A DNA stretch of 50,270 bases, taken from the IMG/VR virus record IMGVR_UViG_3300015195_000008, positions 1 through 50,270 of that record. One strand, 5' to 3'. This stretch comes from a virus. Positions 143-38,700 of this stretch are shown in pieces. The notes under the pieces are model-generated. The model worked only from the letters and a program-made list of their open reading frames with translations. It was not told where the DNA came from and ran no database searches. The first letter of the stretch is position 1. Every line of letters begins with the position of its first letter. The translations under genes were made by a program, and so were the position numbers.

Positions 143-1473
143 CGGAGATCGAAGAAATACGTGAGATTCAGTCTAGGGAAGCTAATGTGGTACATGCGAT
201 CGTACCAGAACCCGACGGCAGTGTCTAAGTCCGTATCGTTTAATGTCCTGATAAACTTCTTGATGTTCGATACTTGGTACTGCCCGTCTGACATGTTCTT
301 TGGAGTCGTACCGTCAGAGAACCAGACGCCTCGCTTGTTTATCCACCCCGACATTCCGTCAAGAGTTGCAACAGATAGACCCGAACGACACCCGGTGTCA
401 GATATCTTGATAGCAATGAAGTCAGCATTAGTTGAGCCATATACGGCATACAGGCTTCGATCCTTGTTAAGCAGTAAGACGCCTCCCTGGCTTGTCATAC
501 CAGCAGCAGCGTCATTGAAAGAGTTCTCACCGACCGGCAAGAATCCCTTAATGAGGTCGAAGCCCCAAGGCTCGTTCAAGTTGGAGTAGTAGACCAGGGA
601 GGGGTCCAAGGGAGTTCCCCATCCCCAAATGCGCTCCTGGTGAGTACAGATGAATTTGAACGGGAACGGGACATCTCGGTTCACCGTGAGGAGCTGCCCA
701 GTAACGTCTACATCGGCTAGGTTGTCGTTATAGGCCGTCGTTGTGTTATCGAAGATCGTATGAACCAGGTAGAACTGGTTAAGTACGCCTAAACCTAGAC
801 GGTAAATGTTTCTTTGGGTAACTTGAGGGTCTGGTGAAATAGGTATGTTGGTTAAGTTGATGCTTTGATTGTTTACTGTGACAGGAAGAGAGACAATGCC
901 CTGTGAACTCTCCTGGTTGATATTTCCGAATGTAATGCAGTAGTAGTATGTCACAGGGAGAGGTGTGCCTAAGTTGCCTGCCCCGTTCCCTGTTACCGTA
1001 GGCGCCGTAGGAGCAATGATACCCCAGAACGTAACCACGAGATTGAGGTCGATTTTTAATGGACGATCGACACTGTTATTGACGAAGCACCACTTCAGGG
1101 AGAACACGAACTGGGTATTGAGGCCAGGGGTGAGGACCTCGGGTAGGGCCAGGGGGTTGTATGGACCTAAGAGAGGTCCCTCATACAGCGTACCTACTCC
1201 GCCTACATCGACCGCGAAGATGTACGTATCGGCGAACCCTGGACGGATGAACTTCGTGAAGCCGTTTATCGGGCCTGGTAGTGTGCCGACGAACGATCGA
1301 CCAAGGGCCGTAACGTAAGACCCAAAAGTGTCGTTGGGGGTAACATTTGTTGCGTCCACAATGTTATCTGGAGCGAGACGAAAAGGAGCGGTGGTAGCAT
1401 CAATGCCCATAACAGGACCGACAGTAAGTATCGGTTGAACATTGTCTCCCTCAACCTCTATAGGGACGGCCAT
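1..1473 (-). CDS. Tail nozzle / packaged-DNA stabilisation-like protein (N-terminal 491 codons, runs off the left edge)
   Basis: The ORF starts at ATG 1473, overlapping the stop of the upstream gene (TAATG), and is open for 491 codons to base 1. It continues in frame at 50128 down to the stop at 49787, giving about 604 residues in the closed genome. The sequence resembles tail nozzle proteins (P22 gp10 / T7 gp12-like, beta-rich): a segment of the type VYYSNLNEPWGFD near mid-protein, then LLLNKDRSLYAVYG, and a C-terminal stretch with SFPRLNLTYFFDLRSQSWW. The adaptor and portal lie upstream in the same operon, which fits a role as the distal part of the short tail tube that holds DNA in the capsid. 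The family call rests on pattern recognition, not a search. Confidence 0.75.
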   Translation of the reverse strand, partial: MAVPIEVEGDNVQPILTVGPVMGIDATTAPFRLAPDNIVDATNVTPNDTFGSYVTALGRSFVGTLPGPINGFTKFIRPGFADTYIFAVDVGGVGTLYEGPLLGPYNPLALPEVLTPGLNTQFVFSLKWCFVNNSVDRPLKIDLNLVVTFWGIIAPTAPTVTGNGAGNLGTPLPVTYYYCITFGNINQESSQGIVSLPVTVNNQSINLTNIPISPDPQVTQRNIYRLGLGVLNQFYLVHTIFDNTTTAYNDNLADVDVTGQLLTVNRDVPFPFKFICTHQERIWGWGTPLDPSLVYYSNLNEPWGFDLIKGFLPVGENSFNDAAAGMTSQGGVLLLNKDRSLYAVYGSTNADFIAIKISDTGCRSGLSVATLDGMSGWINKRGVWFSDGTTPKNMSDGQYQVSNIKKFIRTLNDTDLDTAVGFWYDRMYHISFPRLNLTYFFDLRSQSWWKLGWATNHIFTDAESNQNVLGNNLQHIGQFDQWFTGGSDIGD

Positions 1474-2798
1474 TAGGTAACCCTGAAAGCTGTTATTTGG
1501 ATATTGGACGTACTAACAGAAACGGCACCGGAACTAGATACCGTACACGTAACAGTATCTCCAGGGTTTGCTAATCCGTTTAGCTGTAAGGTAAACTGCC
1601 CGAATGTAGTTGCAGGCAAATTAGCAACCGGATCTGAACCTCCTTGCCAAGCTCCTCCCGCAGTACCTCCCGTACCCGTCACATTAAGGGTACTGACACC
1701 CCCGGAGGATGTGTATTGAATGAAAGCCTGGCAAACAACATTCCAAGATGCCCCGTTAGATGGCACCGTAAGAGATAAAGGACTTCCTCCATACGAAACG
1801 ACCGCTCCGCCGATCGAAATGTGGTTTGCCGTAGTCGGGGCCTGTACGGTGTATGAGTGCGAAGTAGGCTGAGATATAGTTATACTACCGTCAGGAGACG
1901 ATAAAGTGACAACCGGAGTCGTTCCGTTCACATCTATATGCGTGCCTGGGTTAAGAGTGACGTTAGCTAGTTGGGTATGCCCTAAAACGTCTAAGGTACT
2001 GTTTGCAGTTAACGAAGCATCTACTGTAGCCCCCCCAGTAACATGCAGACTGCCTGTAGTAGTTAGCCCTACAACGAACAGAGTCGTGTCTGCAGTAAGT
2101 GACGAGTGAAACGTGCCTGCGCCGAACACATCAAGGGTCCCTGCTACAACGGTTGCGCCTGTTAAGGTAACATTATTGAAGCCAGGGAAGGGCACAAGGC
2201 CGGTTATACGGGCCGACGGGATAATCCCGGTTACGAGCGTGCCTGTCTTATCAACAGCCCACTTCGATACCCCGTTTACTACCAAGTTATCAAGGAGAGA
2301 GTTCGCGGCAGACGCTACATCAGTTACCTGGAGAAGCCTTCCCTGAACCTGTACCCCAACACCTGGGTCCCATGTAACGAAAATCTGCTGTGACGCCTGA
2401 TTTATCGTCAAGACGGTCAACGGGACGCTAATGACCTGCCCCTTATTGTCAATTTGGAAGAGTCTCGTCCAGGTTATCGGCGTGGAAGGTATGTTGGTAG
2501 GCGGAGACTCCCAACGAGTCATTGACCCGTCTGCGCCTAGTTCAAGAGCATACGCAGGCAGGCCAGTGTTCTGAGGCGACTCTTGGTCCCACTGCAGTAG
2601 GTTCTGATTCCACATAGCGTTCGTAACGAGCCAGAGGTTGCCTGAGACTTCGCGAATCTCTTGGTACTCGCCGTTCGGTTCTGTCGGAAGGAACTGAATG
2701 CCGGGAAAGGCTGTAGCCCCTATGACAATATCAAAAGGAAAGTTCCCTGAAGGGGAGACCGCATTGTCTGGGAGAAAAGGGTAAATACTCTCAGCCAT
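1473..2798 (-). CDS. Tail fibre / appendage protein, repeat-rich
   Basis: 441 residues. The first ~150 residues look globular (many Trp, Pro and aromatic residues) and could anchor to the tail. Residues ~150-330 are low-complexity beta-type repeats rich in Thr, Val, Gly and Leu (units such as GTFHSSLTADTTLFV and GSLHVTGGATVDASLTAN), as in trimeric phage fibres. The C-terminal ~110 residues look like a separate beta domain. There is no signal peptide, unlike the fibre-like proteins at 12103-16753. The gene lies directly between the adaptor and the nozzle and starts next to the adaptor stop, so it is probably a structural tail component. The receptor is unknown. Confidence 0.65.
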   Translation of the reverse strand: MAESIYPFLPDNAVSPSGNFPFDIVIGATAFPGIQFLPTEPNGEYQEIREVSGNLWLVTNAMWNQNLLQWDQESPQNTGLPAYALELGADGSMTRWESPPTNIPSTPITWTRLFQIDNKGQVISVPLTVLTINQASQQIFVTWDPGVGVQVQGRLLQVTDVASAANSLLDNLVVNGVSKWAVDKTGTLVTGIIPSARITGLVPFPGFNNVTLTGATVVAGTLDVFGAGTFHSSLTADTTLFVVGLTTTGSLHVTGGATVDASLTANSTLDVLGHTQLANVTLNPGTHIDVNGTTPVVTLSSPDGSITISQPTSHSYTVQAPTTANHISIGGAVVSYGGSPLSLTVPSNGASWNVVCQAFIQYTSSGGVSTLNVTGTGGTAGGAWQGGSDPVANLPATTFGQFTLQLNGLANPGDTVTCTVSSSGAVSVSTSNIQITAFRVT

Positions 2799-4406: not shown

Positions 4407-4847
4407 CTATCCTGGGAGAGCGAACGCTAAAAGCGTAACAGTTCCTGATATTGTACCACCAATGACCGTTCCGCTAACGGCACGTACCGCAACAAGGGGA
4501 GCAGTGACATAAAGGGCACTGTTATCTGGCTTGTAGATAGGATTTGACCACTGGAAGCCTGCTTCTACTGAAGGAGCAGGAAGAGGGAACCACTCGTTGC
4601 CTGTAGATCCGTAGTCGTTGACTGGGCGTTGCTCTGGAGGGAAGTTCTGGTAGGCGGTAACGGTGTCAATTGTCCCATACAAGGTGATATTGTAGCCAAG
4701 GCCAGCACCCACCACTTGAAACATCCACTTCGGCCAGCGTGAGCATTCGGTTACTAACGGTAACACGCCGGAATCTTGTCCTGACGCTGTAAACGTGAAG
4801 ACGGGCTTTCCGCCCGCGCTTCCTACACTGGTTATGCTGCTTCCCAT
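4407..4847 (-). CDS. Hypothetical structural protein, beta-rich
   Basis: 146 residues, translation-coupled to the preceding gene by a TAATG overlap. Composition is beta-type (Gly, Thr, Val, Ser) with conserved-looking aromatic and Pro segments (WPKWMFQVVGAGLGYNITLYG). No family recognised. Its position in the capsid/adaptor block makes a minor capsid or decoration role plausible. Confidence 0.7.
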   Translation of the reverse strand: MGSSITSVGSAGGKPVFTFTASGQDSGVLPLVTECSRWPKWMFQVVGAGLGYNITLYGTIDTVTAYQNFPPEQRPVNDYGSTGNEWFPLPAPSVEAGFQWSNPIYKPDNSALYVTAPLVAVRAVSGTVIGGTISGTVTLLAFALPG

Positions 4848-6472
4848 TACAGTTGCTCATTAGTGATCTGGAAGCCTTTGCCGGTTGAAACGCTCCCTGG
4901 AAGGTAGTAGTGAAGGTCCATCGGCACGCCCCAGAGGATCACGTTCAGACCGCCTGCAACAGTACCGTCGGCAGTAATGCGGAGAGTCAACTCCGTACCA
5001 GTAGGCCAGAAGGCGTCGAAGTTCTCGAGTGCATATACTTCCCCAACAAGGTCAGCCTGGCTAACATTGAACAGGGGGAGAATGATGTCCTCGGGGAACA
5101 AGGCGTTACCAAGGGTCGCAGTCAATGAAGGGGTTATCCCTTGATTCGTCGTGTCGAGTGGAGGAGAGACAGGCTTCGCTCCGGCGACACCGGTAACCAT
5201 GTTCGCTCCACTTGCCACTACCGTACCAGCGATGCTGGTTGTCGAGACGGAGAAGGTCGGAGTAGCTGTATCGTAAGCGATGGTCTGAATGACGATCTCT
5301 GCTCCGAGGGAGTTTGCACGATACAAGGTACTGAAGGCAGGGTTCACGCCGGTCATAGCCTGGAGGTTGAGCGATGCAGTCATGTTAGCCGCGAGCTGAG
5401 TCAGATTCGCCGCTGCGCGTCCAGTGACTTCGTACACGTAAGGAACGGCTGCGATTAAGATTGTGATCTTCTCGCCTGCCTGGTAGGTACCGCCGAGGGT
5501 CAGATACGCATACGAGGAAGCTGCTCCAGCCCCTTCATAAGGTCCTTTACCTGAAACGATGTTGAAGCCCATCTTACCTGCGGCGAAATGTCCGCCGGTA
5601 GGAACTCCAGTAGATCCGCCTGAAGGAGGAGGCACAGGGGTAGGAACAGTGATAGTGTTCGTATCCATCGTCAACGCGCCGTTACGAGCTAACATTCTAC
5701 CTACAACCACGGTGCTGGTATCGACGGTGATCGACGTTAGCGCCATAATGGTACCGTTGAAAGTGGAGGTAACACCTAACGTCGCGGAGCTTCCGACCTG
5801 CCAGTAGACATTGTTCGCATTGGCTCCATTGATTAACAAGACGTTGCTGCTTGTAGCGGTAGTGAGAGCAGTAGGCACTTGGAAGATCCAAACAGAGTTC
5901 GGGTTACCTCCAGCGTCAAGAGTGACCGTGCCAGTGATGCCTAACGAGGTAGCCGCCATGTAAAGGCCGGGAGACAGGATCAAACCGCCGATGTCAGCCG
6001 GTATGGAGATAGCGCCTGAACGAGCAGCAGCGTTGTTATACGCTGCAGTGAGATCGTTTTTAGCGGTAACTGCTGCAGGGTTAGCGATATTGGTTTGCCC
6101 TGTGACCGTAGGAGAACCAGTAACCGACGCACCAGGGGACAGGCCGAGGTCTCCGTTAATAGTCGTTGCGCCGGTGTTCGTGACTGTGGAACCAGCTAGC
6201 CCTCCATAGGTTGATGCAGTAGCGAGAGGGACAGCCGACGGACCTGAAGGGACGACAGGAGGAGCAGCAGACGGAGGTAGAGCTTCAATGTCGCTCAACA
6301 CATACGAGACATGCGTGAATTTAAAATTGAGTCCTAGGGGTTTTATACCTTGAGTTGTTAGCGAAGGCTGTGCAATTGCAGGAACAAACATAGGCTGAAA
6401 CTGCAAAGAGTCCCATGCACCGTAAAGAAGGGCCTGGGGATTACACTCCTTGGCCCGAATTTGGATACTCAT
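4847..6472 (-). CDS. Virion protein with an embedded DUF3494 ice-binding-like domain
   Basis: 541 residues directly downstream of the major capsid gene (3-base gap, GGAG 7 bases before ATG). Residues ~82-278 match the DUF3494 / type 1 ice-binding protein family closely: VTNTGATTINGDLGLSPG, AAYNNAAAR, LSPGLY, GTVTLDAGGNPNSVWIFQ, NVYWQVGSSATLG, FNGTIMALTSITV and GRMLARNGALTMDTNTITV appear in the family order. The Cys usually seen before NVFWQVG is Asn here. Pro-rich linkers flank the domain on both sides (PPSAAPPVVPSGP and PTPVPPPSGG). Residues ~320-435 form a second beta domain resembling part of the neighbouring 7434-8378 protein, and the C-terminal ~90 residues look structural. In bacteria DUF3494 proteins bind ice or act in adhesion. 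Here the domain is probably displayed on the virion, which is an inference. Confidence 0.8.
   Translation of the reverse strand: MSIQIRAKECNPQALLYGAWDSLQFQPMFVPAIAQPSLTTQGIKPLGLNFKFTHVSYVLSDIEALPPSAAPPVVPSGPSAVPLATASTYGGLAGSTVTNTGATTINGDLGLSPGASVTGSPTVTGQTNIANPAAVTAKNDLTAAYNNAAARSGAISIPADIGGLILSPGLYMAATSLGITGTVTLDAGGNPNSVWIFQVPTALTTATSSNVLLINGANANNVYWQVGSSATLGVTSTFNGTIMALTSITVDTSTVVVGRMLARNGALTMDTNTITVPTPVPPPSGGSTGVPTGGHFAAGKMGFNIVSGKGPYEGAGAASSYAYLTLGGTYQAGEKITILIAAVPYVYEVTGRAAANLTQLAANMTASLNLQAMTGVNPAFSTLYRANSLGAEIVIQTIAYDTATPTFSVSTTSIAGTVVASGANMVTGVAGAKPVSPPLDTTNQGITPSLTATLGNALFPEDIILPLFNVSQADLVGEVYALENFDAFWPTGTELTLRITADGTVAGGLNVILWGVPMDLHYYLPGSVSTGKGFQITNEQL
5639..6229 (-). other. Segment encoding the DUF3494 (ice-binding-like) domain
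   Basis: This marks residues ~82-278 of the virion protein at 4847-6472. The segment is bounded by Pro/Ser/Gly linkers, as expected for a module inserted between the N-terminal ~70 residues and the structural C-terminal half. I see no leftover mobile-element sequence at its edges. Confidence 0.8.
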
Positions 6473-9713: not shown

Positions 9714-9980
9714 TTAATCCTCCAGCCACTTAGGCAGTTCAAGTTCGTGTTTCTTATACTGAATTTGGAATGCGTTGATTATAGCTTGTCTTGCGACGAT
9801 ATAGCCTATTCGCGTTCCTTGGTCAAGGTCCCGACTCGTTAGTAAGGTCTGTTTCCATTGCGAGAGTATATCCTTAAACATCTTCCTTGTCAAATTGTCC
9901 CAGACTTTAGACTCTAGGAGATAAGCGATACTATCGCTACTTTCTATCTCCAGAACCTCCCTGTCCACTATCTTGTGCAT
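9714..9980 (-). CDS. Small helical protein between portal and scaffold
   Basis: 88 residues, charged and helical, no family recognised. It overlaps the end of the portal gene by 44 bases, and its own end supplies the GGAGG ribosome-binding site for the scaffold candidate. Such compactness supports it being real and co-translated with head genes. Confidence 0.65.
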   Translation of the reverse strand: MHKIVDREVLEIESSDSIAYLLESKVWDNLTRKMFKDILSQWKQTLLTSRDLDQGTRIGYIVARQAIINAFQIQYKKHELELPKWLED

Positions 9981-11898
9981 TGATGCTCCCTATATCAGTT
10001 TGCTTGAGTACGTGCATAGCCATTTGCTCTTGCTGCTGCTTCTGTTGAGCGATTTGTTGGGCTTGCTGGAGCTGTTCGGCTTCGTCCATCGTTCCGATGA
10101 ACCCGGTTACGTCTGGGTAGTCGAAGGTCTCGTACAGGTTGCGCGTGACGTTGTAGACGTGCTTCATGTTGCTCGAGACCAGAGGGTTCTGAAGGCCCAT
10201 CTGATAGACTGCCATAGCGTCTTGTCTTCTATTCTCTTTGTCGAGAGGTCCTCCCTGCCCGTTTATACCCAAAATGTAGTTTTGTGCGAGGATTTCTCTC
10301 GGAACAGTGACCTGAATGTTCCCTTCGCTCGACGCTTGGAGCATCTGCATCTGATCTTTGCCGTATTTGACGTACAAAAGATGTGTAAAACGCAGAATGT
10401 CTTGCATCCAATCCCTAACCAGGGATATTGTACGGTTCGTTTGCAGCCCTTGCATTGCTGTGTTCTGCTGCATGACCCGGCTATTCTGTTTCCCGCCGCC
10501 TCCAGTTTGAGGAGGAGATCCGCCTGTCTGCGGGGCTCCGATACTGCGGTCTGCCATAGCGATGAGGGAGGCTTCTTCCTGGAAGAGTGCTTGAGGAGGC
10601 TCTCCAAGCTGCAAGAACCCGAAATCGGTAGGCGTATCGACCTCAAACATGACTCCAGGACCGAACCGGCGTGACTCGTTCTCGCCTTTGTTCTTGAAGC
10701 CAGGGGTTGCGTACGTAGACGGGTTCGACGCAATGTCTAACCAGTCGAGTCTTGCGTTTCTTTGGGCGGAGGCTTCTTCTTGAGCTGAGCCAGCGACATC
10801 AGGAACGGAAAATCCGTAAAAACGATTCGGGCGAGGCATAAGAGAGAGAGGAAAGTAGGGACGACCGCCTTCATACTCATAAGGCTTATAACCAGCCATA
10901 GTTTGACTAGTATCATGCACCCATATAAAGTTCTCTTCACAGACTCCGTCTCCATCCATGTCGTACTGACGTGTTAAGACCTGCCAAATCTCTACAGGCC
11001 CTCTGGACATTTTAATGCCTTCAGGAGAAGTCACCGAGTAGTCGCCGATCGCTATCTTTCCGCCGATCGTGTAGGTGAAGTTCCCTCGACTATCGTACGG
11101 GCGCTCATCCTGAGCAGATGACACGTACGACAGAATGGCTTCGACGGCTTCCCTCTTGAAGGTGCCTGCCTCAACCATAGCCCACATGTCGTGTTCGGCC
11201 ATGTAAATCTTACGTGCTACTCCATCAGCTTCTTTAATAGAAGGAGCATAATTAGGAAAAAGAATAAAATCGCGAAGCTCAACTGCAGTGTACTTAACGG
11301 CATCGTATTCCACCTTCTTCACAGTCTGCTTCTGCTTCTTTATGATCGGCTGCCCGTTCTCATCTTCCATCGGCTGTCCGTTCTCGTCCATGACAGGCCC
11401 GTCGATGAGCTGAGTCGTCTCAGAGACTTTCTTCTCCCACATCACTTCCAGAATGGCCGTACCGTCCCGCGCACTAAGCTCAATGCACGTATCTTGAGGA
11501 GCTTTCCACTTGTTGTTTACGTACTCCGAATTGTAGAACTGCTCGACAATGTGCGAGTACTGAGTCGAAATCGCATCGCTACCATGTACCGAATATGGCC
11601 TCGGTATCAGAGTCGATCCAGCGATACGGGCAGACATCTCCTTGACTGCAGTGAAGACAACCGGCACGACGATGTTCGCGCATCCATCCCACGGAGGATT
11701 AGCACGCTCTCCCATCATCTCATACAGGGCATTGCCGTAGTTCAGAGACTCTTCTAAGCCCCCACGGTTCCCCTGGTTCATGTCGATCAACTGCCAAACG
11801 GACTCACCCATCTGCCTCCACTGATCGTCGTCTAAACGACGTACAGGGCGCTCATTGATGGACTCGGGTTGATGCTCCGTAGTCAGCTTATTTTTCAT
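9937..11898 (-). CDS. Portal protein
   Basis: 653 residues from ATG 11898, which overlaps the previous stop (ATGA) and follows GGAAAG; an ATG four codons earlier is possible. The layout fits large podovirus-type portals: an N-terminal segment with NPPWDGCANIVVPVVFTAVKEM, a stem/wing region with VELRDFILFPNYA, later DIASNPSTYATPGF, and a long C-terminal helical barrel ending in a Gln-rich stretch (residues ~610-635). The portal is the dodecameric ring through which DNA is packaged and to which the tail attaches. The terminase lies upstream, separated by the unusual fibre cassette. Confidence 0.8.
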   Translation of the reverse strand: MKNKLTTEHQPESINERPVRRLDDDQWRQMGESVWQLIDMNQGNRGGLEESLNYGNALYEMMGERANPPWDGCANIVVPVVFTAVKEMSARIAGSTLIPRPYSVHGSDAISTQYSHIVEQFYNSEYVNNKWKAPQDTCIELSARDGTAILEVMWEKKVSETTQLIDGPVMDENGQPMEDENGQPIIKKQKQTVKKVEYDAVKYTAVELRDFILFPNYAPSIKEADGVARKIYMAEHDMWAMVEAGTFKREAVEAILSYVSSAQDERPYDSRGNFTYTIGGKIAIGDYSVTSPEGIKMSRGPVEIWQVLTRQYDMDGDGVCEENFIWVHDTSQTMAGYKPYEYEGGRPYFPLSLMPRPNRFYGFSVPDVAGSAQEEASAQRNARLDWLDIASNPSTYATPGFKNKGENESRRFGPGVMFEVDTPTDFGFLQLGEPPQALFQEEASLIAMADRSIGAPQTGGSPPQTGGGGKQNSRVMQQNTAMQGLQTNRTISLVRDWMQDILRFTHLLYVKYGKDQMQMLQASSEGNIQVTVPREILAQNYILGINGQGGPLDKENRRQDAMAVYQMGLQNPLVSSNMKHVYNVTRNLYETFDYPDVTGFIGTMDEAEQLQQAQQIAQQKQQQEQMAMHVLKQTDIGSINAQDSGQGGSGDRK

Positions 11899-12101
11899 AA
11901 AGCTTTCCATTGAGCTGCGCCTACTGTCGAGTCAATGCACATGTACATAGTAGTTACTCCACTGTCTACATATTGCCAAAGGGAGGCATCGCACCACCCC
12001 GAACTAATGTCATCGTTAGGTCCGGGGATAGTAGTCATTGCTTGGCCGTAAGGTACTGAGCGGAGGCCTACTTCATCGGAGTAGCAATAGATTTGAGGCA
12101 T
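11895..12101 (-). CDS. Small hypothetical protein
   Basis: 68 residues with several Trp, Tyr and Cys. ATG at 12101 follows AGGATGG, and the stop overlaps the portal start. No family recognised. It belongs to the same operon as the fibre cassette upstream but has no signal peptide. Confidence 0.6.
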   Translation of the reverse strand: MPQIYCYSDEVGLRSVPYGQAMTTIPGPNDDISSGWCDASLWQYVDSGVTTMYMCIDSTVGAAQWKAL

Positions 12102-12102
12102 G

Positions 12103-13383
12103 TTACCATCCTATGCAGATACCGGCAACTGTATGAGTTGTGCCGCCGTTGTTGACAAAGTTCGCTGCCGTAGTCGTTGGTGCAGGGTTCATGGAGACCG
12201 CCTGAGAGGTCGAGCTGCCCACCACTCCTCCCGTACAATCTGGAGCTGCAGTGTACGCCGTGTTGAAAGTGAGCGTGAATGCGGCTCCTGCCGCTGCTGA
12301 TCCGCTGCCGGTTTCAACATGCAGTCCGCCTAAGCGGGTCCCATTTTGGAAACTCTTGGGGCAAGCTTCCCCACTCGAAATCATCTGCTTACTTCCGTTC
12401 GTTCCTGCGCATTGACTGGCTGTGAGGCCGTTGTTTATGATGTTACCTACAGTAACGGTGCCTGTGTAGGTAGGCGCGTTTGTCTCAGAAACTACTGGGG
12501 TAGTCGTTCCGTTCGTTACCGTTATGTTTCCAGTTCCGGTAACGTTGGTAACCGTACCAGTTCCTATGGGACCGCCTGTATAGTACTCAGTAACGACGAT
12601 AATACCAGAACCGCCTGCTCCGCCTGCAAAACCCGTCGTACCTGCCGTTCCGCCTGTACCTGCTGCACCTACGGCGTAAGCGTACGTAGCTGCAGGGGTG
12701 CTAATAACCGCTTCAATACATGCCCCGGAACCTCCACCAGCGGCGTTGGCCGTAGAACCTTCCGCACCGCCTCCGCCGCCTCCGGTGTTTGTAGCTCCAG
12801 CAATGCCTACCTGATTCGTGTTGTTGCCACTACCGGAACCAGCACCCCCTAAACAAGATGCAGCACCCTGACCGGAGCCTGTAACCGTGCTAGCCGGAAC
12901 GCCGTAACCGCCATTTACAGCATAACCCAACGGTCCTGCTGCAAGCGTGGCAGTTCCTCCTGCCCCGCCGTACCCATTCGAGCTGCCGCCAGTAAAACCA
13001 CCTACTCCGCCTCCTGAAGTTATGAGCGATGTTCCGAAAGTGGTGTTACCGCCATTTCCCCCGTTACCGGCAGTCGCATTGGATCCGCCGCCTCCGCCAC
13101 CGCCTCCAACGGCAAGGACTTTAATCCACTGGACGCCTGAAGGAGTAGTGTAAGTCCCTGAACCCGAGAGGAACTTTTGCGCTGTTGGAGGGCTGCTATT
13201 GCCGCCTGGGCATGCAGTTGTGATTAACGTACTCACGCTATCCGTACAGACTGGACTACTTGCAGACAGTCCTGTAACAGTTGCATTGCGTACAACGATA
13301 TTGTTTACAGGGAAAGCGAAGGCGGGCACTGATATGCTCAGTGCCGCCACTAAAGCGAGGAAGAACCGCTTCCACCTTCTCAT
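12103..13383 (-). CDS. Secreted Gly-rich tail-fibre-like protein (cassette member 1)
   Basis: 426 residues. The N-terminus has a clear Sec signal peptide: basic start RRWKR, hydrophobic core, cleavage site ~AFAFP near residue 24. Residues ~90-270 are Gly-rich with poly-Gly blocks, reminiscent of poly-Gly sandwich tail adhesins. It contains the Cys-pair motif LTASQCAGTNGSKQMISSG followed by EACP, and a C-terminal ~75-residue domain with LTFNTAYTAAPDC and a final GICIGW. That domain recurs in the two genes upstream and resembles gp53-like fibre tips. A signal peptide on a fibre-like protein is unusual: it suggests export to the periplasm or cell surface rather than simple cytoplasmic virion assembly. 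Confidence 0.75.
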   Translation of the reverse strand: MRRWKRFFLALVAALSISVPAFAFPVNNIVVRNATVTGLSASSPVCTDSVSTLITTACPGGNSSPPTAQKFLSGSGTYTTPSGVQWIKVLAVGGGGGGGGSNATAGNGGNGGNTTFGTSLITSGGGVGGFTGGSSNGYGGAGGTATLAAGPLGYAVNGGYGVPASTVTGSGQGAASCLGGAGSGSGNNTNQVGIAGATNTGGGGGGAEGSTANAAGGGSGACIEAVISTPAATYAYAVGAAGTGGTAGTTGFAGGAGGSGIIVVTEYYTGGPIGTGTVTNVTGTGNITVTNGTTTPVVSETNAPTYTGTVTVGNIINNGLTASQCAGTNGSKQMISSGEACPKSFQNGTRLGGLHVETGSGSAAAGAAFTLTFNTAYTAAPDCTGGVVGSSTSQAVSMNPAPTTTAANFVNNGGTTHTVAGICIGW

Positions 13384-13384
13384 T

Positions 13385-14041
13385 TTAGAACCCTATGCAG
13401 ATGACATTGAACACTGCGGCACTCTCGCTACCGTCGAAGATGACTGCAGCAGTCGTGCTCTCTGAGACAACATCGACCGGGATGGGGTTAGGACCTGAGT
13501 TGAACGAGGTCGCGGTGCAAAGAGGTGCAACTGTGTAAGCTGCTCCGAAGGTCACAGTCGCTTCCCAAGGAGTCGTTGCCGAGGTCGTGACCTGCTTGGT
13601 TTCGATGTGGAGACCGCCTGCTCTCGCTCCTGCGATGTAGGTCGTCGGACAGAGTTCGCCACTGGAGACCATCTGCATCGAACCGTTAGTCTGAGCACAC
13701 TGTGATGCGGTCAGACCGTTGTTGATGAGGTTGCCTACCGTTACCGTACCCGAGAACGTAGGGTTCGTAACGGTCGTGATGTTCGGAGTTGCTCCGCCTG
13801 AGCTGAGGATGTTCCCTGAGCCTGTAACCGCTGTTACGGTACCTGCACTACATGCAGACCCCGTAGACACGACAGTCTTGCTAGCATCCGTTGCTAGGCA
13901 CTGTGAAGCCGTGTTACCTGAGAGGTTCAAGGTATTGATAACCGTCGAGTTCGTCGGGGGAGCAGCCAAGGCAGGAGCCGATGCCAATGCAAAAGCTACT
14001 ACTGAAGCTGTTAGGGACTTACGCGCTTGTGCAATGAACAT
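13385..14041 (-). CDS. Secreted tail-fibre-like protein (cassette member 2)
   Basis: 218 residues from ATG 14041, chosen because AGGAG lies nine bases upstream and the signal peptide then begins properly (basic ARK, hydrophobic core, cleavage after ALA near residue 26). Two Cys-pair units occur: NTASQCLATDASKTVVSTG then SAC, and LTASQCAQTNGSMQMVSSG then ELC. The C-terminal domain (VTFGAAYTVAPLC near residue 160, ending NVICIGF) is shared with members 1 and 3. It overlaps the end of member 3 by 23 bases, so the two are translated as a set. It could be a fibre tip, a secreted receptor blocker or a surface protein; the sequence does not decide. Confidence 0.75.
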   Translation of the reverse strand: MFIAQARKSLTASVVAFALASAPALAAPPTNSTVINTLNLSGNTASQCLATDASKTVVSTGSACSAGTVTAVTGSGNILSSGGATPNITTVTNPTFSGTVTVGNLINNGLTASQCAQTNGSMQMVSSGELCPTTYIAGARAGGLHIETKQVTTSATTPWEATVTFGAAYTVAPLCTATSFNSGPNPIPVDVVSESTTAAVIFDGSESAAVFNVICIGF

Positions 14042-14777
14042 TGTACGTTGCTCCTGTCTCGCTGCTGTCAAAAATGGTCACGGCTGTTGTGCTCTCAGAC
14101 ACTATCGTTGCCATTGTAGTGTACGGAGCTGAACTAAAGCAAGTTGCTACGCATAGGGGAGGCGTAGCATAGGGGGTACCGAACGTGAAAGTCCCCTGCC
14201 AGGGAGAGGAGGCAGAGGTCGTAACTTGAGCGACCTGCGTTCGCGTTGTAGATTCGCAGGTAGGACAAGAAACAGTCACGACACCGCCGACTGTGTTGGT
14301 AACGATCGGAGAGTTACCGCTAACTGCTGTGATCGCTCCGCTGCCTGTGATATTGAACAGTACCCGGTTGATCCCGCCACCTGCGGCTAACAAAGTGATG
14401 GGCGTTCCTGTGCCGGTAGTCCCGTCGAGTCTCACTGCTATCATGTCCGCACAGTTGAAGGCATAACTGCCGGGAGTAGAGATGGTCACATTGGGGTTCA
14501 GTCCGTCAGGAGTGACAGTAAGGAGAGCAGGAGTCCATATCTGAGTGCCATGGTACAACCCCTCAACGTGCCATGTCCCACCAATCGCTCCGTTCAGCCC
14601 GACAACACAAGCACTCTGGCCTGTCAAACCTGGAAGGACAAGGAAAGGCCCTGTAGGATGATATGGGTTGCCTGTGATCTGCAGGAAGGCTAAGTCTGCT
14701 GAAGCCATACTCGGGGGCACGACAGAACAAATAAACCCTAAAAAGAAGAGGAAGAGCAGTACGCCCTTCTTAATCAT
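14019..14777 (-). CDS. Secreted tail-fibre-like protein (cassette member 3)
   Basis: 252 residues with a strong signal peptide (MIKKGVLLFLFFLGFI, cleavage near ASA, residue ~26). The middle is beta-rich. The C-terminal ~75 residues match member 2 closely (FTFGTPYATPPLC, then VSESTTAVTIFD, then YNVHC). The start overlaps the stop of the Lys-rich mini-protein at 14774-14887 (ATGA). Cys residues are frequent for a phage protein, consistent with folding in an oxidising compartment. Confidence 0.75.
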   Translation of the reverse strand: MIKKGVLLFLFFLGFICSVVPPSMASADLAFLQITGNPYHPTGPFLVLPGLTGQSACVVGLNGAIGGTWHVEGLYHGTQIWTPALLTVTPDGLNPNVTISTPGSYAFNCADMIAVRLDGTTGTGTPITLLAAGGGINRVLFNITGSGAITAVSGNSPIVTNTVGGVVTVSCPTCESTTRTQVAQVTTSASSPWQGTFTFGTPYATPPLCVATCFSSAPYTTMATIVSESTTAVTIFDSSETGATYNVHCTSA

Positions 14778-14887
14778 TTCTTTTTCGCCTTCGGTTTCAT
14801 ACCCTTTTTCATTGCCATTTCCTCTACCATCTTCATGATCGACATCTTCTTGACGGAGGTACCGCTCTTATGAGGCTTCTTAGGCAT
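14774..14887 (-). CDS. Lys/Met-rich mini-protein
   Basis: 37 residues, about one third Lys, with several Met, ending KPKAKKK. It is coupled to both neighbours: its ATG is 2 bases past the upstream stop and its TGA overlaps the next ATG. No family recognised. The polycationic composition suggests nucleic-acid or membrane binding. A similar 40-residue gene lies two genes upstream. Confidence 0.55.
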   Translation of the reverse strand: MPKKPHKSGTSVKKMSIMKMVEEMAMKKGMKPKAKKK

Positions 14888-14888
14888 A

Positions 14889-15272
14889 TCAGTTACCTAT
14901 ACAGATGACTTCTGCTTGAGTTATTACACTTCCGCTGTAATTATTTACAAGCACCTGACCATTTCCGGGAGGAATTAGCAAATTCAGAACAGGGGTACTG
15001 TTTGAAGAAGAAACTGTGCAGACGGGGTTACCGATATAAGGTACTACGTATGTGAAAACATGGAACGTACTTGGCTGTATGGTTGTCGGGCCAAATGCTT
15101 CAATATGCACAGGCAGGTTATTAGGTGAGTTGTTAAGGTATACCTGCGTATTAGAAACTACTGCGTTCCCAGAGATAGTGAGCTTATGACCCTCTTCAGA
15201 ACTATCCGCAAAAGCAGTTAGAGGAGCGAGAGCTAAGACTGTTGAGAGAATGACTGAAGCAAGTTTTTTCAT
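14889..15272 (-). CDS. Secreted fibre-tip-like protein (cassette member 4)
   Basis: 127 residues from ATG 15272, preceded by AGGAG with ideal spacing; a longer reading to 15317 lacks a site. It has a signal peptide (MKKLASVILSTVLALAP, cleavage near AFA, residue ~22). It lacks the Cys-pair repeat but keeps the C-terminal pattern: FTYVVPYIGNPVC, then a final EVICIGN. It looks like the shared C-terminal domain alone, with its own export signal. Confidence 0.75.
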   Translation of the reverse strand: MKKLASVILSTVLALAPLTAFADSSEEGHKLTISGNAVVSNTQVYLNNSPNNLPVHIEAFGPTTIQPSTFHVFTYVVPYIGNPVCTVSSSNSTPVLNLLIPPGNGQVLVNNYSGSVITQAEVICIGN

Positions 15273-15280
15273 GATATCTC

Positions 15281-16753
15281 CTAAGTTCCTATGAAAACTT
15301 CGCAGTTGCCTACCCATTGGGTTGTAGTACCGCTAACCGCAGTTACCAGTACGACTAAACTATCACCAGCCAATACTGTGTAGGGAGTAATGGATGATGT
15401 GCTGTGGGTTACCCAGGGGCCTCCCTGGGGACTGTCAGGAATAACGACAGAGCCTAAATTAAACGGAGCACTTCCCGAAAATGTCCCGTTGGCTATTCCG
15501 AAACTAAAAGTAGCTCCGCCTAAGCCTGCAGCACTGAGAGGGGTATAGACCGAATTGCCTGCTGCCGCGTCCGTTGCATTGAAGTCCTGGCAAGATATGT
15601 TGATCTCACTGATTACAGCGCCGAGAGGTAGTCCGACAACGCCCCCGTTAATAGCTGCCCACGAAGCAGGAGCATTTACTTGAGCGGATCCAAAACCCGG
15701 TAGGCCTGCATCGACGAGTTTCAACGAAGGAGCGCCGCCGCAAGCCGAACCAGTGTCAATGATTCTACCTCCAGTAGTTGCCCTTAGGCAGTTACCAGGT
15801 GTGAGGTTCGCTCCGTTCAAGTCTGCTGCTCCTAGTTCACCGATGTTGTTGATCGCAACCAAGTCAGTTGAACTACTTGTGTCACGCAGACCGAAGGCGT
15901 TCGCATTGATCCCGGCGACTGTACCGCTGCCCGTTGTACGCAGAATTATGTTGTCGCCAGTATTCGCTACCCAACTAACAATCGCTCCTATCGTCGAAGG
16001 TATATGAAACAGGAGTGCTGTAACTGCCCCGGTAAAGGTAGGAGCGGCAACTATATCCCCAATAACTGCTCCTGTAGTAGGGGCAAAAGTAAGATTCGCC
16101 GAAGGACCTGCTGTTACTGAAGAAACCGCTCCGCCTCCAGCAGCACAAGCCGACCCTGTATCCACTATTCTACCGTTTGTAGATGCTCTCAAACAATTGC
16201 CGGGGGTTAAAGTATTTGAGAAGAATGCGCCAGTAATTGAGAAGTCTTTTGAACTGTCTACAGTAAAGTAAGGAATACTAGAACTGTCAGTAAGAGCGAG
16301 AGCCGTTCCAACGTTGCCGTCTACCGTACAGTTCGTACTGCTAGGGCATGCTAGAAGATTTGAATAACCGCCTGCGGCAGTGCTACCGATCTGAAAAGCT
16401 TGACTCAAGGACCCTGCTCCGACCGCTGAAGTTCGATGAAGAGGTGAAGTAACTGACGACGAAAACGTAGGGGAGTTAGAGAAGTTAAGTCCAACTGCGC
16501 CAGTTGTAGGAGAAGCAGTCAGGTTAGGGTTGGAAGAGGTGACTGAGGAAACTGCTCCGCCCCCACCGCCACAAGCTCCGCCAGACGAGACTAGTTTCTT
16601 ATCAGCGTCTGTCGCTACGCATTGGTTAGGGGTGAGACTCTTCACTCGTACGTTGCCGTCAAAAAACTGGTTATAGGGGTAGTGAGTCACTTGGTCTGCA
16701 GCAACCGAAAGAGGAAGGAGAGCGAATAACGCTAAACTAGCGTATCTCTTCAC
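15281..16753 (-). CDS. Secreted tail-fibre-like protein (cassette member 5)
   Basis: 490 residues. GTG start overlaps the stop of the Lys-rich mini-gene (GTGA). Signal peptide MKRYASLALFALLPLSVAA, cleavage near residue 19. Three Cys-pair units (LTPNQCVATDADKKLVSSG then GAC; LTPGNCLRASTNGRIVDTG then SAC; LTPGNCLRATTGGRIIDTG then SAC) alternate with fibre-like beta repeats and Gly stretches such as GGGGGAVSSVTSSNPN. The C-terminus ends NCEVFIGT, a diverged form of the shared end. It is the largest and first-transcribed member of the cassette. Confidence 0.75.
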   Translation of the reverse strand: MKRYASLALFALLPLSVAADQVTHYPYNQFFDGNVRVKSLTPNQCVATDADKKLVSSGGACGGGGGAVSSVTSSNPNLTASPTTGAVGLNFSNSPTFSSSVTSPLHRTSAVGAGSLSQAFQIGSTAAGGYSNLLACPSSTNCTVDGNVGTALALTDSSSIPYFTVDSSKDFSITGAFFSNTLTPGNCLRASTNGRIVDTGSACAAGGGAVSSVTAGPSANLTFAPTTGAVIGDIVAAPTFTGAVTALLFHIPSTIGAIVSWVANTGDNIILRTTGSGTVAGINANAFGLRDTSSSTDLVAINNIGELGAADLNGANLTPGNCLRATTGGRIIDTGSACGGAPSLKLVDAGLPGFGSAQVNAPASWAAINGGVVGLPLGAVISEINISCQDFNATDAAAGNSVYTPLSAAGLGGATFSFGIANGTFSGSAPFNLGSVVIPDSPQGGPWVTHSTSSITPYTVLAGDSLVVLVTAVSGTTTQWVGNCEVFIGT

Positions 16754-16921: not shown

Positions 16922-16950
16922 ATTCTACCACGATTTGTCAATGTTTCCAA
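16922..16950 (-). promoter_or_regulatory. Candidate extended -10 promoter for the fibre cassette
   Basis: Leftward reading gives TTGGAA (16945-16950), a 17-base spacer ending in TGG, and TAGAAT (16922-16927). The TG before the -10 box makes it an extended -10 type. It overlaps the terminase stop and would start transcripts near 16915, ahead of the mini-gene at 16872 and the fibre cassette. The motif GTGGTAGAAT here is echoed at 49315-49324 (GTGGTAAAAT). Confidence 0.5.
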
Positions 16951-18584
16951 TTCATTCCGAAATAACCTGCAGAGGAGTGCCCTGCCTTCTTTTCTTCGGG
17001 CCAGAGGGGGTCTTGAGGCTTGTTCAGCTCGAAAATGTCCTTCGTGTCCGGTATTCTCTGCCTCGCTTGGTACGTTCTGCCCTCGTGTTTGGCGAGAGAG
17101 TCGAGAATATCCTCATGCACAAGCTCGTTCGCGGCTGAGAAGTTGTCGATCTGTTCGATAAGCGACCTCTGGCTAGGCAAAACGTACAACCTGCCTGCCC
17201 GTACCCTTGGCTCGAGCATCTGAATGCGGGTGGACTTGTTCTGACCGCCCACTTTGTCCTCTTCGATAAGAACGCTCAGCCCCTTTTCTCTCAAGGCTCT
17301 CTGCAGCATGGGTATCCACAGGCCGTAACCGCCGACGTTCTCCACTATGATCTTCGTCGGTAGGTAGAACTGAATTTGAGCGATCATGCGCTCAAGTATG
17401 CCAGAGACGGAGTCCTTCCACCCGTCTGCTACGAGGGTCCACCAACGATCGGCGAAGTCCGTACCTACCACGGTTACGCCGTGAAAGTCGCTCTTGCGGG
17501 TAGGGTTCATGCCTGCCGGGTCCCATGCCATTGTGATGTTGACCGGGTACTGCTCTCCCGTAGGCAGGCGGATAATGTTCGTCTTGCCTATCTTAATGAG
17601 GGAGAAGTCCATGACGTTGACGTTTGAGATATCGAATACGCGATCTTCGTCGGCAACTGGTTTGTTCTCGTAGTTGGACGCGAACCTTCTTGCTCCGCCT
17701 TTACGGTTACGCATGCTCTCAAGGAAGTCGAACCCTTGTCCGACAGGGAAGAAGAGACCTTGAGGCCCGTCCCAACAGGAGCGAATGAACTTCTTGTAAC
17801 GCTCTTTTCCACCGTCTGAGACGCGCTTTTCATCGTCCTTAATGATCCGCCCGAATGCGTCATCAACATGCCACCGGGTACCTGTAACCATGAGCGTTCC
17901 GCGCGGGTCGAGCATAGACTGGAGGCTGTCGAGGTACTCAGCCGTAGCGTCCCGCTGCTCCTGCGTAACGACGTTCTTCTCGTTTACAAGATCGTCTGCG
18001 ATGATGAAGTCATAGTGAGTAGACGTTAAGTCGGAACCCAGGGACCCAGTATCGACGGTAGGCTCAATCAATGATAAGTTAGTTCTTTTTCCTACGGTGA
18101 TCTGAGAGTCAGACCATACAGCTTCGCGAAACTCAGGCTTCCACCCATACCCGTACTCCTCGAGGAACTCAGCGTTATGCGAGAAGTGATGCTTGATGAC
18201 TCGGAGACGGCCAGAGGACACCTTCTGCTTATGTGTGACCCAAAGAATACGTACGTCGGGGTTCTCCTTGATGACTCCGATACACGCGCCTACTAAGATG
18301 GATGACTTGAACGTGCCACGAGGCATGAGCATCATGTAGAGCTTCTGAATGTCACTGCGGAACTGGAAGTCTCCGATCGCCTCTTCAATGAAGATGCACG
18401 GCTCAGTATGCGTCTCTCGCTGTAGACCTATCCCTGAGCTGGAGGTCTCGTCGGACATGTTGAGGTAGTCGGTACATAGGGAAAAGAGCCACTCCGATTC
18501 GGAGGGCTCTTCATTGATATCTACGCCTTTATCTTCCTTGTTCCACCCTTCGGTGATTTTAAGAAGATCCTTACCGAATCCCAT
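16938..18584 (-). CDS. terL: Terminase large subunit
   Basis: 548 residues from ATG 18584; a TTG six codons upstream (18602) is an alternative. ATPase part: Walker A variant MPRGTFKSSI near residue 95, Walker B YDFIIADDL near 180, coupling motif MVTGTRWHVDD near 230. Nuclease part: TMAWDPAGMNP (first Asp), IIVENVGGYG, and HEDILDSLAKHEG near the end, as in RNase H-like terminase nucleases. It cuts and pumps concatemeric DNA into the prohead through the portal. No small subunit was recognised nearby. The start overlaps the MazG-like gene. Confidence 0.9.
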   Translation of the reverse strand: MGFGKDLLKITEGWNKEDKGVDINEEPSESEWLFSLCTDYLNMSDETSSSGIGLQRETHTEPCIFIEEAIGDFQFRSDIQKLYMMLMPRGTFKSSILVGACIGVIKENPDVRILWVTHKQKVSSGRLRVIKHHFSHNAEFLEEYGYGWKPEFREAVWSDSQITVGKRTNLSLIEPTVDTGSLGSDLTSTHYDFIIADDLVNEKNVVTQEQRDATAEYLDSLQSMLDPRGTLMVTGTRWHVDDAFGRIIKDDEKRVSDGGKERYKKFIRSCWDGPQGLFFPVGQGFDFLESMRNRKGGARRFASNYENKPVADEDRVFDISNVNVMDFSLIKIGKTNIIRLPTGEQYPVNITMAWDPAGMNPTRKSDFHGVTVVGTDFADRWWTLVADGWKDSVSGILERMIAQIQFYLPTKIIVENVGGYGLWIPMLQRALREKGLSVLIEEDKVGGQNKSTRIQMLEPRVRAGRLYVLPSQRSLIEQIDNFSAANELVHEDILDSLAKHEGRTYQARQRIPDTKDIFELNKPQDPLWPEEKKAGHSSAGYFGMNWKH

Positions 18585-18855
18585 CCTCTTCCAATCTTGC
18601 AACCCAAGAGACTGCTATCGCTGCTATTTGAACCAGTTCTTCCTTGAGGTTCGACTCGTCGAGTTCTTGAATCGCTCTAGCCACTTCTCCCACTTCTTCG
18701 GTTAGCATAGCCAGTCGGACAATCAGAGGACACTCCTTGTCGTATGCGATGTAGGTGAACTTGCCCTGCTGCTGGAGGTCTGTCTGCCGTCTGAGTTCAC
18801 AGTTCACGAGGAACTCTGCTCGTTCGATGTTAGCGGTGTACTTAAAGTTTTGCAT
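18571..18855 (-). CDS. MazG-like nucleotide pyrophosphohydrolase
   Basis: 94 residues. The motif LTEEVGEVARAIQ followed by EELVQIAAIAVSWVARL is the EExxE...ExxD-type helical core of the MazG/all-alpha NTP-PPase superfamily; the usual second-helix Asp is replaced in QIAAIA. Such phage proteins hydrolyse nucleotides or modulate (p)ppGpp levels. It overlaps the amidase stop and the terminase start, so it is part of the same transcript. Confidence 0.7.
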   Translation of the reverse strand: MQNFKYTANIERAEFLVNCELRRQTDLQQQGKFTYIAYDKECPLIVRLAMLTEEVGEVARAIQELDESNLKEELVQIAAIAVSWVARLEEDGIR

Positions 18856-19399
18856 GAAGGTTCTCCGTTACGTACTTCTTAACGAGAGGTATTAATTTGT
18901 AGAGTTGGTCTCCAGGACAAGCAGTGCTGTATGATGCAGTGTCGTGCGGATAAAAAAGCGGTGCAATGTCCCGGTGTCCGATGGTTCTTGCGATAGAGGG
19001 TATGTGTATATGAGACAAGACGGCAAGTCTATTGAGGGCGTCGAGCTGTGATCCAGTTGGCCTACCAGTGTATCCAGGATCGCTTGACTCGAAATTTCCG
19101 ATAAGACTGACTGCAACGCTCTGCTGATTTCTTCCGTAAGAAGCTGCGGATGACCATTCAATTGGGCGTCCCTGGAAAATTGTTCCCTGGGCGCTAATAA
19201 CCCAATTGTACGCGATAAACGCCATGCCTTTAGCGCGGTGTTCGGCATCAATGTCCAGAACAGTCTGATAAACCGGACCAGCCGTATGATGAACGATGAA
19301 GTCGGTGATATCCGATATTGATCGGACTGCATAATTTTCTCCTGGCTTAGGGTAAGAAGGAAGGGGCGCGACCGCCCCAAACATGTCAGGTTCTTGCAT
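18842..19399 (-). CDS. Endolysin: N-acetylmuramoyl-L-alanine amidase (Amidase_2/PGRP fold)
   Basis: 185 residues, single catalytic domain, no signal peptide. Zinc-site motifs: IVHHTAG near residue 38, IGHRDIAP near 143 and the TACPGD Cys near 162. The segment YNWVISAQGTIFQGRP is typical of the fold. It would cut the amide bond between muramic acid and the stem peptide at lysis. The small membrane-protein gene at 19822-20055 just upstream is a holin candidate. Confidence 0.88.
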   Translation of the reverse strand: MQEPDMFGAVAPLPSYPKPGENYAVRSISDITDFIVHHTAGPVYQTVLDIDAEHRAKGMAFIAYNWVISAQGTIFQGRPIEWSSAASYGRNQQSVAVSLIGNFESSDPGYTGRPTGSQLDALNRLAVLSHIHIPSIARTIGHRDIAPLFYPHDTASYSTACPGDQLYKLIPLVKKYVTENLHAKL

Positions 19400-22539: not shown

Positions 22540-23748
22540 CTATCTCGGAGTAGGCGGGTTCAACCAGACCCATTTATTAGCGAAGTCTACGTGCTTGGTA
22601 AGGTCAATCGTGTAGCGGTCTCCCGCCCAGTCGGGGTTCCCCCAGTGATTCTCAAAGGCGGTCAGAGGGGTGCAAGGCGATCCGTTGGAGGGGCACCCGG
22701 TTCCCATGAACGTGTATCCTGAACCGGATAAGGAGTAAGTTGGATCTGCCTCCACTTGGATCTGGAAGCCATTGTTACCGTTGGTATCGCCCAAGTAGCC
22801 GCCGTAGTCCGCTAAGGCATACACGAGGGCCTTCTCGTCTGCTCCGGGTATACCGAGAGCGTCGATCTGAGCATGCGTCATGTTGAGGCGTCCATAGGCT
22901 CCGTATGGGGCTCCTTGCCCATTGGGGCAGGTTGTATCGCTCGAGTTACGGTAGTTGCTTGGGTAGACGGTTACGTTTGAGGTACAGGGAGCTACGATGA
23001 AGAGCGCGTGTAGGACCTGCGGTGTAGAGTTCGCTATTTCAGGAGCACGGACAACACCTGCCCAGAGTGCGAACCCTGCACCAGTTGCAGCTCCTCCGAT
23101 GCCTTCGTCAGTCGTCTGCAGCTTGCCCGACTCGCCTGTAGCGATAGTGCCTCCATTAGGCGGGAAGTTCGTTACGAGCCATGAGTCCATTTCAATGAAC
23201 CCGTGGGTCGGGTCGCCTTCGTTGAGGTCGATCATGCCCATGTGCTCGTCTCCACCGCCTGCAGGCCTCGCGTACGAGGGGACATGGAGCCAGTTAGTTG
23301 GGCATGTGAACCACGTGAAGACGCAGCTTACGTTATGGGAAGGGTCTGAAGTAGTGGTTGAGATGTAGATGGGGTGCTGCCACTGGTTCACTTGGTTCGT
23401 GTAACCGAACGACAGGTGGTTAAAGAACTGCGTGGTTGAACGGTAGTACGCTTGCCATGTGGCCGAAGAGGGAGAGACTCCTGAGTTCTGCTGTGCGACA
23501 GTCCTGTTAAACGGGCTGTTGGCGGAGTACGGTGTACAGTTCGGCGGCATGGTCAGGGAGAGGGTGCAACCGGAACCGGCAACGGAGAGGGGTTGTATTT
23601 GGGAGACTGGAGCAGTGGTCGCTGGAGCAGTGGTCGCAAGAGGTTTGGGAGTCGTTGTAGCCTTGATCGTTTGCGCGTGTCGTGAGGCTCCCAGGGTAGT
23701 AAAGGCAAAGGCTAGAGCTACGAGAGTTGAAGTTGTTACGAGTCGCAT
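22540..23748 (-). CDS. Secreted protein of unknown function
   Basis: 402 residues, AAGGGG site. N-terminal signal peptide (RLVTTSTLVALAFAFTTLGA), then a Thr/Ala/Pro-rich linker (residues ~27-50) and a folded ~350-residue domain with six or more Cys. Features such as YSANSPFNR, GDEHMGMIDL, GGAATGAGFALWAGVVRAPEI, LHALFIVAPC, and DEKALVYALADYGGYLGD recall a family of secreted hypothetical proteins common in actinobacteria, but I cannot name the activity. It could be a secreted depolymerase or a cell-envelope modifier. A phage gene with this architecture is unusual. Confidence 0.65.
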   Translation of the reverse strand: MRLVTTSTLVALAFAFTTLGASRHAQTIKATTTPKPLATTAPATTAPVSQIQPLSVAGSGCTLSLTMPPNCTPYSANSPFNRTVAQQNSGVSPSSATWQAYYRSTTQFFNHLSFGYTNQVNQWQHPIYISTTTSDPSHNVSCVFTWFTCPTNWLHVPSYARPAGGGDEHMGMIDLNEGDPTHGFIEMDSWLVTNFPPNGGTIATGESGKLQTTDEGIGGAATGAGFALWAGVVRAPEIANSTPQVLHALFIVAPCTSNVTVYPSNYRNSSDTTCPNGQGAPYGAYGRLNMTHAQIDALGIPGADEKALVYALADYGGYLGDTNGNNGFQIQVEADPTYSLSGSGYTFMGTGCPSNGSPCTPLTAFENHWGNPDWAGDRYTIDLTKHVDFANKWVWLNPPTPR

Positions 23749-38348: not shown

Positions 38349-38700
38349 CCAACGGCCAGACTGGACGGACTACTTCTTAGATATCGCTAGTACAGTCTCT
38401 AACCGTAGTACATGCCCTAGGCTTCAAGTCGGATGCGTTATTACTCAAGGCAACCGAATCATAGCGACAGGGTACAACGGAGCGCCTCAAGGAAAGCCTC
38501 ACTGTTACGACGAAGGATGTTTCCTGATAGCCGGTCACTGTACTAGAGCGATTCATGCAGAGCCTAATGCTCTAATGTTCATTAGCAGTCACACGAAATT
38601 TTTATCTGCTTATGTTACTCACAAGCCTTGTGAATACTGCGAGGCATTACTCAAGGCTAACAACATAAAGAAAGTTTTCTACAGGAGCGTTTATCCATGA
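38308..38700 (+). CDS. dCMP deaminase
   Basis: 130 residues from ATG 38308, chosen because AAAGGA lies eight bases upstream; ATG 38299 would be too close. Zinc and catalytic motifs: TRAIHAEPNAL (HAE) and VTHKPCEYCEALL (PCxxC); further Cys in HCYDEGCF and GHC fit the second zinc site of phage dCMP deaminases. Converts dCMP to dUMP, feeding ThyX. Overlaps ThyX by 41 bases. Confidence 0.9.
   Translation: MEVIHSPWPLGVFDQRPDWTDYFLDIASTVSNRSTCPRLQVGCVITQGNRIIATGYNGAPQGKPHCYDEGCFLIAGHCTRAIHAEPNALMFISSHTKFLSAYVTHKPCEYCEALLKANNIKKVFYRSVYP

Follow-up and report, generated by a model that had tools for sequence, protein, structure and literature searches.

Predicted exported, cysteine-paired fibre-like proteins encoded between the terminase and portal genes of a soil phage

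Background

The folding and attachment of tail fibres in tailed phages are generally assumed to take place in the cytoplasm. A locus in a soil phage raises the question of what five consecutive fibre-like genes with Sec-type leaders are doing within a head-tail gene block. Exported, cysteine-paired fibre-like proteins would either break the rule of cytoplasmic fibres or represent a previously unrecognised kind of secreted phage lectin that acts on cells outside. Annotators are also cautioned that a fibre-like gene with an export signal in a metagenome may come from a phage.

The cassette and its genomic context

The window (the whole stretch of 50,270 bp analysed here) is a nearly complete tailed-phage genome with recognisable genes for the large terminase subunit (TerL), an SU10-type portal and a capsid-like protein. 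Its ends, at 1-142 and 50129-50270, carry a 142-bp repeat with 98.6% identity (2 mismatches), and a tail gene spans their junction, which points to a circularly permuted or nearly complete genome. Apart from one distant portal, no related record was found in the phage collection.

Five minus-strand ORFs, designated W1 to W5, lie within the head-tail gene block between TerL and the portal, on the same strand as both (Table 1). Their starts at 16753 (GTG), 15272, 14777, 14041 and 13383 are exactly those given by an earlier sequence-only reading of this DNA. That reading also held that the set interrupts the usual terminase-portal adjacency, and the comparison agrees: in an outgroup podovirus, TerL and portal are 5 bp apart with no insert.

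Table 1 Features of the cassette region and other relevant genes in the window
Feature	Position	Strand	Description	Basis
W1	15281..16753	-	Fibre-like, predicted exported, 490 aa; shaft with three C-x15-C modules	Leader score, Cys, tip model
W1 leader	16697-16753	-	MKRYASLALFALLPLSVAA	
W1 tip	about 15281-15670	-	Type B (jelly-roll-like)	
W2	14889..15272	-	Short fibre tip, predicted exported, 127 aa; type A tip	
W2 leader	15207-15272	-	MKKLASVILSTVLALAPLTAFA	
W3	14019..14777	-	Predicted exported, 252 aa	
W3 leader	14697-14777	-	MIKKGVLLFLFFLGFICSVVPPSMASA	
W3 tip	about 14019-14249	-	Type A	
W4	13385..14041	-	Predicted exported, 218 aa; two C-x15-C modules	
W4 leader	13964-14041	-	MFIAQARKSLTASVVAFALASAPALA	
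W4 tip	about 13385-13651	-	Type A, predicted pyocin-fibre/H-lectin fold	
W5	12103..13383	-	Predicted exported, 426 aa; C-x15-C module	
W5 leader	13315-13383	-	MRRWKRFFLALVAALSISVPAFA	
W5 Gly-rich domain	about 12580-13188	-		
W5 tip	about 12103-12363	-	Type A	
Small ORF	11895..12101	-	68 aa, in the cassette-portal gap, without leader	Weak fibre-like matches
Portal (SU10_portal)	9937..11910	-	Downstream cassette boundary	
TerL	16938..18602	-	Upstream cassette boundary	
Endolysin (Amidase_2)	18842..19399	-	Upstream, same late block	
Probable ordinary virion fibre	1473..2798	-	441 aa, without leader; N-terminal part conserved, tip variable	
Sixth predicted exported protein	22540..23748	-	402 aa	Leader score

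Relatives, defined as IMG/VR contigs with the same region and collected from TerL and portal scans, carry five (L004), six (L002) or eight (L008) cassette genes, and a second lineage with a 66% identical portal contributes further ones, some of them cut by contig ends. The longest cassette member (L015:869-3697) encodes a predicted exported protein of 942 aa that contains 22 Cys and has a Gly-rich tip. No relatives were found for the cassette proteins in 50,697 phage records, for one cassette protein in 72,556 plasmid records, or for TerL and W4 in 84,980 species genomes.

Sec leaders

Leaders were scored with a home-made signal-peptide scorer, not SignalP, which combined a cleavage-site weight matrix, hydrophobic core and N-terminal charge and took 26 signal peptides of E. 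coli as its training set. Consistent with the earlier proposal of Sec signal peptides on all five proteins, W1 to W5 were among the six highest-scoring of the window's 68 genes, and the remaining member of this group was the gene at 22540-23748. Its product had no Pfam or NCBIfam match; alignment gaps suggest that the L002/L006 relative is too short at this locus to accommodate such a gene. When the first 35 residues of the five cassette proteins were shuffled, 1, 17, 19, 35 and 139 of 2000 shuffles matched the observed score, W5 having the weakest leader. Additionally, Shine-Dalgarno motifs were found at the leader-proximal ATG of cassette genes 2 and 4.

Across the window and its IMG/VR relatives, leaders were found in all 38 cassette genes whose start is complete, a few of them near-identical copies from sister contigs, versus 5 of 147 other genes (AUC 0.99). 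Under a strict cut (score of at least 4.7 plus core hydrophobicity of at least 1.9), 37 of the 38 were retained versus none of the 37 T7, lambda and Tunturi_3 virion proteins scored. The loose cut gave false positives for 4 of 19 T7 and lambda virion proteins, and for none once the hydrophobicity cut was added; single scores near the cut can thus be false, as these control proteins illustrate, and because the leader score is home-made, it is the group result that carries weight. All five leaders between TerL and portal are of the type-I Sec class, no lipobox was detected in any of the 38, and A-x-A sites are retained although paralogous leaders diverge in sequence. Export of the cassette proteins is strongly implied by these sequence features.

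Paired cysteines

The cassette proteins had also been described as rich in Cys, and the count is clear: 2.2% Cys in the mature proteins versus 0.26% in 14 further structural proteins that the window encodes. Even Cys counts were found in 21 of 24 proteins and 28 of 30 clusters, a parity that is not a fully independent test because clusters share modules. A C-x(~15)-C module, whose alignment is too loose to serve as a scan query, repeats along the shafts (about 36 occurrences), and almost no Cys column varies across alignments of orthologues. Paired cysteines are the expected trace of folding with disulphides in an oxidising compartment, so that disulphides are strongly implied by the sequences.

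Tips and predicted folds

The sequence-only reading had assigned to all five proteins a common C-terminal domain of the form AYxxxPxC...C, ending in ICIG and resembling gp53-like fibre tips. The motif holds for W2 to W5, but W1 carries a jelly-roll-like tip that is unrelated by profile comparison, and W3 ends in HCTSA. The gp53-like resemblance stands by predicted fold and through a relative, but not by direct family match: a search of Pfam and curated families with the window cassette proteins gave no gp53-like or H-type lectin match above the cut-off, whereas a cassette protein of L008 matched Pfam H_lectin above it, a sequence-level link between the cassette and that family.

The W4 tip was modelled by AlphaFold2 mostly at pLDDT >90. 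In Foldseek searches, R1/R2 pyocin fibres ranked first, followed by Helix pomatia agglutinin and phage tailspikes or tailspike tips, with probability 1.0 and E-values from 1e-3 to 2e-2 for the pyocin fibre and the agglutinin. Against viral models, the same tip matched a gp53-like C-terminal protein (E 8e-5), an H-type lectin domain and a receptor-binding protein. The fold match was obtained on W4, and the tips of W2, W3 and W5 were assigned by alignment. A PDB sequence search with the W4 profile gave no match. The type B tip of W1 was predicted as a jelly roll of moderate confidence, with weak, generic matches to CBM and TNF folds that do not suggest a function.

The cassette resembles phage gp53-like C-terminal/H-type lectin tips and R-type pyocin fibres in C-terminal position and predicted fold, and differs from gp53-like/H-type lectin fibres in its Sec leaders, paired cysteines and lack of a recognised virion-anchor domain. 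Ordinary virion tail fibres likewise have no Sec leader, unlike the cassette set.

Selection and gene exchange

Cassette orthologues are under purifying selection, with dN/dS of 0.07-0.15 and 0.05 for the tip. Two relatives, L018 and L022, share 97.4% identity across the final cassette gene and on to the end of the portal, but show no relationship left of that gene; moreover, the sequences of L022 and L023 agree at 98% once the portal begins, and their portal-proximal cassette genes differ. Such swaps between near-identical phages are typical of receptor-binding genes.

Similar genes in unrelated phages

A shaft query identified two unrelated IMG/VR phages with eight fibre- or tailspike-like proteins, all eight with even mature Cys counts. 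Leaders were clear by score in five of them; the proteins of 342, 528 and 1204 aa scored 0.4-4.3, at or below the cut, and their leaders were assigned by visual inspection. Among these eight proteins, G007_1871 matches gp12 of Tunturi_1 and Tunturi_2 (52% over 71 aa).

Fibre- or spike-like proteins with leaders were found in the cultured Acidobacteriota phages Tunturi_1, Tunturi_2 and Tunturi_4 (PMC11924767). In the podovirus Tunturi_1, leaders are present on gp12, gp13, gp14 (a tail spike by annotation), gp16 and gp17 (annotated as a virion structural protein), directly after the tail gene gp11, and no leaders were found on TerL, portal, capsid protein, gp11, gp30, gp31, gp33, gp36 or gp37. 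Predicted cleavage gives mature N-termini of QTAAYPNG for gp12, QTTGAPLN for gp13 and YTVTSN for gp14. In the siphovirus Tunturi_4, leaders are present on gp113 and gp114, and Tunturi_1 gp17 is 47% identical to Tunturi_4 gp114 over 751 aa (L050:475-4029, L054:40018-42324). The gene gp17 is also the one that differs most between Tunturi_1 and Tunturi_2. In the main text of PMC11924767, neither a mention of signal peptides nor virion proteomics for these phages was found.

The genes of Tunturi_1, Tunturi_2 and Tunturi_4 resemble the cassette in leaders, location in the structural block and, in nearly all cases, even Cys; they differ in that the phages are unrelated to the window phage and the proteins are linked by short stretches only, via intermediate phages. 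No leaders were found on the annotated fibres of Tunturi_3, which infects the host strain of Tunturi_1. Export imposed by the host was rejected on this ground, and the trait appears to belong to phage lineages. The window phage probably infects a diderm, perhaps one of the Acidobacteriota, although the acidobacterial assignment, made from module links, is a guess.

Predicted exported fibres that may join the virion outside the cytoplasm

We tentatively favour, at somewhat short of even chances, the reading that the cassette encodes exported receptor-binding fibres whose maturation takes place in the periplasm and which are loaded onto virions at lysis. Leaders, paired cysteines, a fibre-tip fold, modular swapping and recurrence in unrelated phages support fibres of this kind at the level of sequence; actual export, disulphides, trimers, virion loading and a receptor are what we infer from them. 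The fibre or spike subunits would be exported by Sec, lose their leaders and fold with disulphides in the periplasm. Opening of the inner membrane by the holin would then mix the compartments, and cytoplasmic heads and tails would meet the periplasmic fibres before or during rupture of the outer membrane. Several interchangeable tips per phage might provide a choice of receptor.

Virion loading is favoured because, of the structural genes tested in Tunturi_1, all large spike-like candidates belong to the exported set, none of that size and kind being found without a leader; this comparison shifts weight toward tail maturation outside the cytoplasm, one of the options raised by the sequence-only reading. 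Against it stand the leaderless fibre of the window phage (1473-2798) and the mature cassette proteins, which have only short strand-like motifs in common at their N-termini and no clear conserved virion-anchor domain there. Virions of tailed phages, moreover, are assembled in the cytoplasm. In the literature searched, mostly excluding subscription journals and preprints, neither a report of exported tail fibres nor a description of fibre maturation outside the cytoplasm of tailed phages was found. As a generalisation, again at somewhat less than even chances, several unrelated tailed phages, some of them on Acidobacteriota, may have receptor-binding fibres or spikes that are Sec-exported, disulphide-bonded and join the virion outside the cytoplasm.

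The main rival, rather unlikely in our estimate and less favoured than fibre loading, is that the proteins are free lectins that coat receptors on the producer, its neighbours and debris and thereby spare progeny, through superinfection exclusion or debris masking. They could stay periplasmic or cross the outer membrane, and would act at or before lysis. This explanation owes its rank to the leaderless fibre of the window phage, whose tip is unlike all exported ones and which could be its virion receptor-binding protein. It also has precedents: T5 Llp is a known exported phage receptor blocker, and infection is blocked when cells receive purified T5 pb5 (PMC9586334). Like the cassette proteins as predicted, T5 Llp and the Cor proteins of phi80 and T1 are phage-encoded and exported, and an intramolecular disulphide has been described for Llp and Cor (PMC9586334); unlike them, they are small lipidated superinfection-exclusion proteins and not fibre-like, whereas the cassette proteins, of 127-942 aa, lack a lipobox. 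Lambda Lom, with a leader score of 15.3, is likewise an exported phage protein encoded among tail-fibre genes, but is an outer-membrane beta-barrel (PMC12309495) rather than a fibre. However, a decoy should copy the specificity of the virion, yet no match was found between the tip of the 1473-2798 fibre and the cassette tips. Five to eight different tips and shafts of up to 940 aa also exceed what a decoy needs, and a large non-exported fibre gene was not seen in Tunturi_1. The cultured phages Tunturi_1, 2 and 4 make the choice between fibre and lectin directly testable.

A role of the exported proteins as enzymes or adhesins in remodelling of the host envelope, capsule or biofilm, as free depolymerases or in attachment of infected cells, is improbable. 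Pectate-lyase-like or beta-helix domains occur in some exported proteins of the unrelated phages, and the window encodes a further predicted exported protein of no known family at 22540-23748, but no enzyme domain was found in the window cassette, and its type A tips resemble receptor-binding tips, not enzymes. It is very improbable that the leaders go unused as hydrophobic N-termini of cytoplasmic fibres that mimic signal peptides: the scorer does produce false positives at the loose cut, but the complete cassette set scores, A-x-A is kept in diverged leaders, Cys pairing is expected only outside the reducing cytoplasm, and a leaderless fibre that has a short shaft stretch in common (L037) contains one Cys in 805 residues.

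Other observations in the window

A complete Ice_binding domain (PF11999, E 1.8e-56) lies in a loop of a conserved protein adjoining the capsid gene (4847-6472, minus strand); the insertion is cleanly absent in the relatives L002 and L014, and no similar domain was found in the phage collection records. On the plus strand, a thioredoxin-like protein (PF00085, 27962-28252) has WSGPC in place of WCGPC and has lost the first active-site Cys, and a single ORF at 38697-39575 combines a GNAT acetyltransferase domain with a following Peptidase_C39-like stretch.
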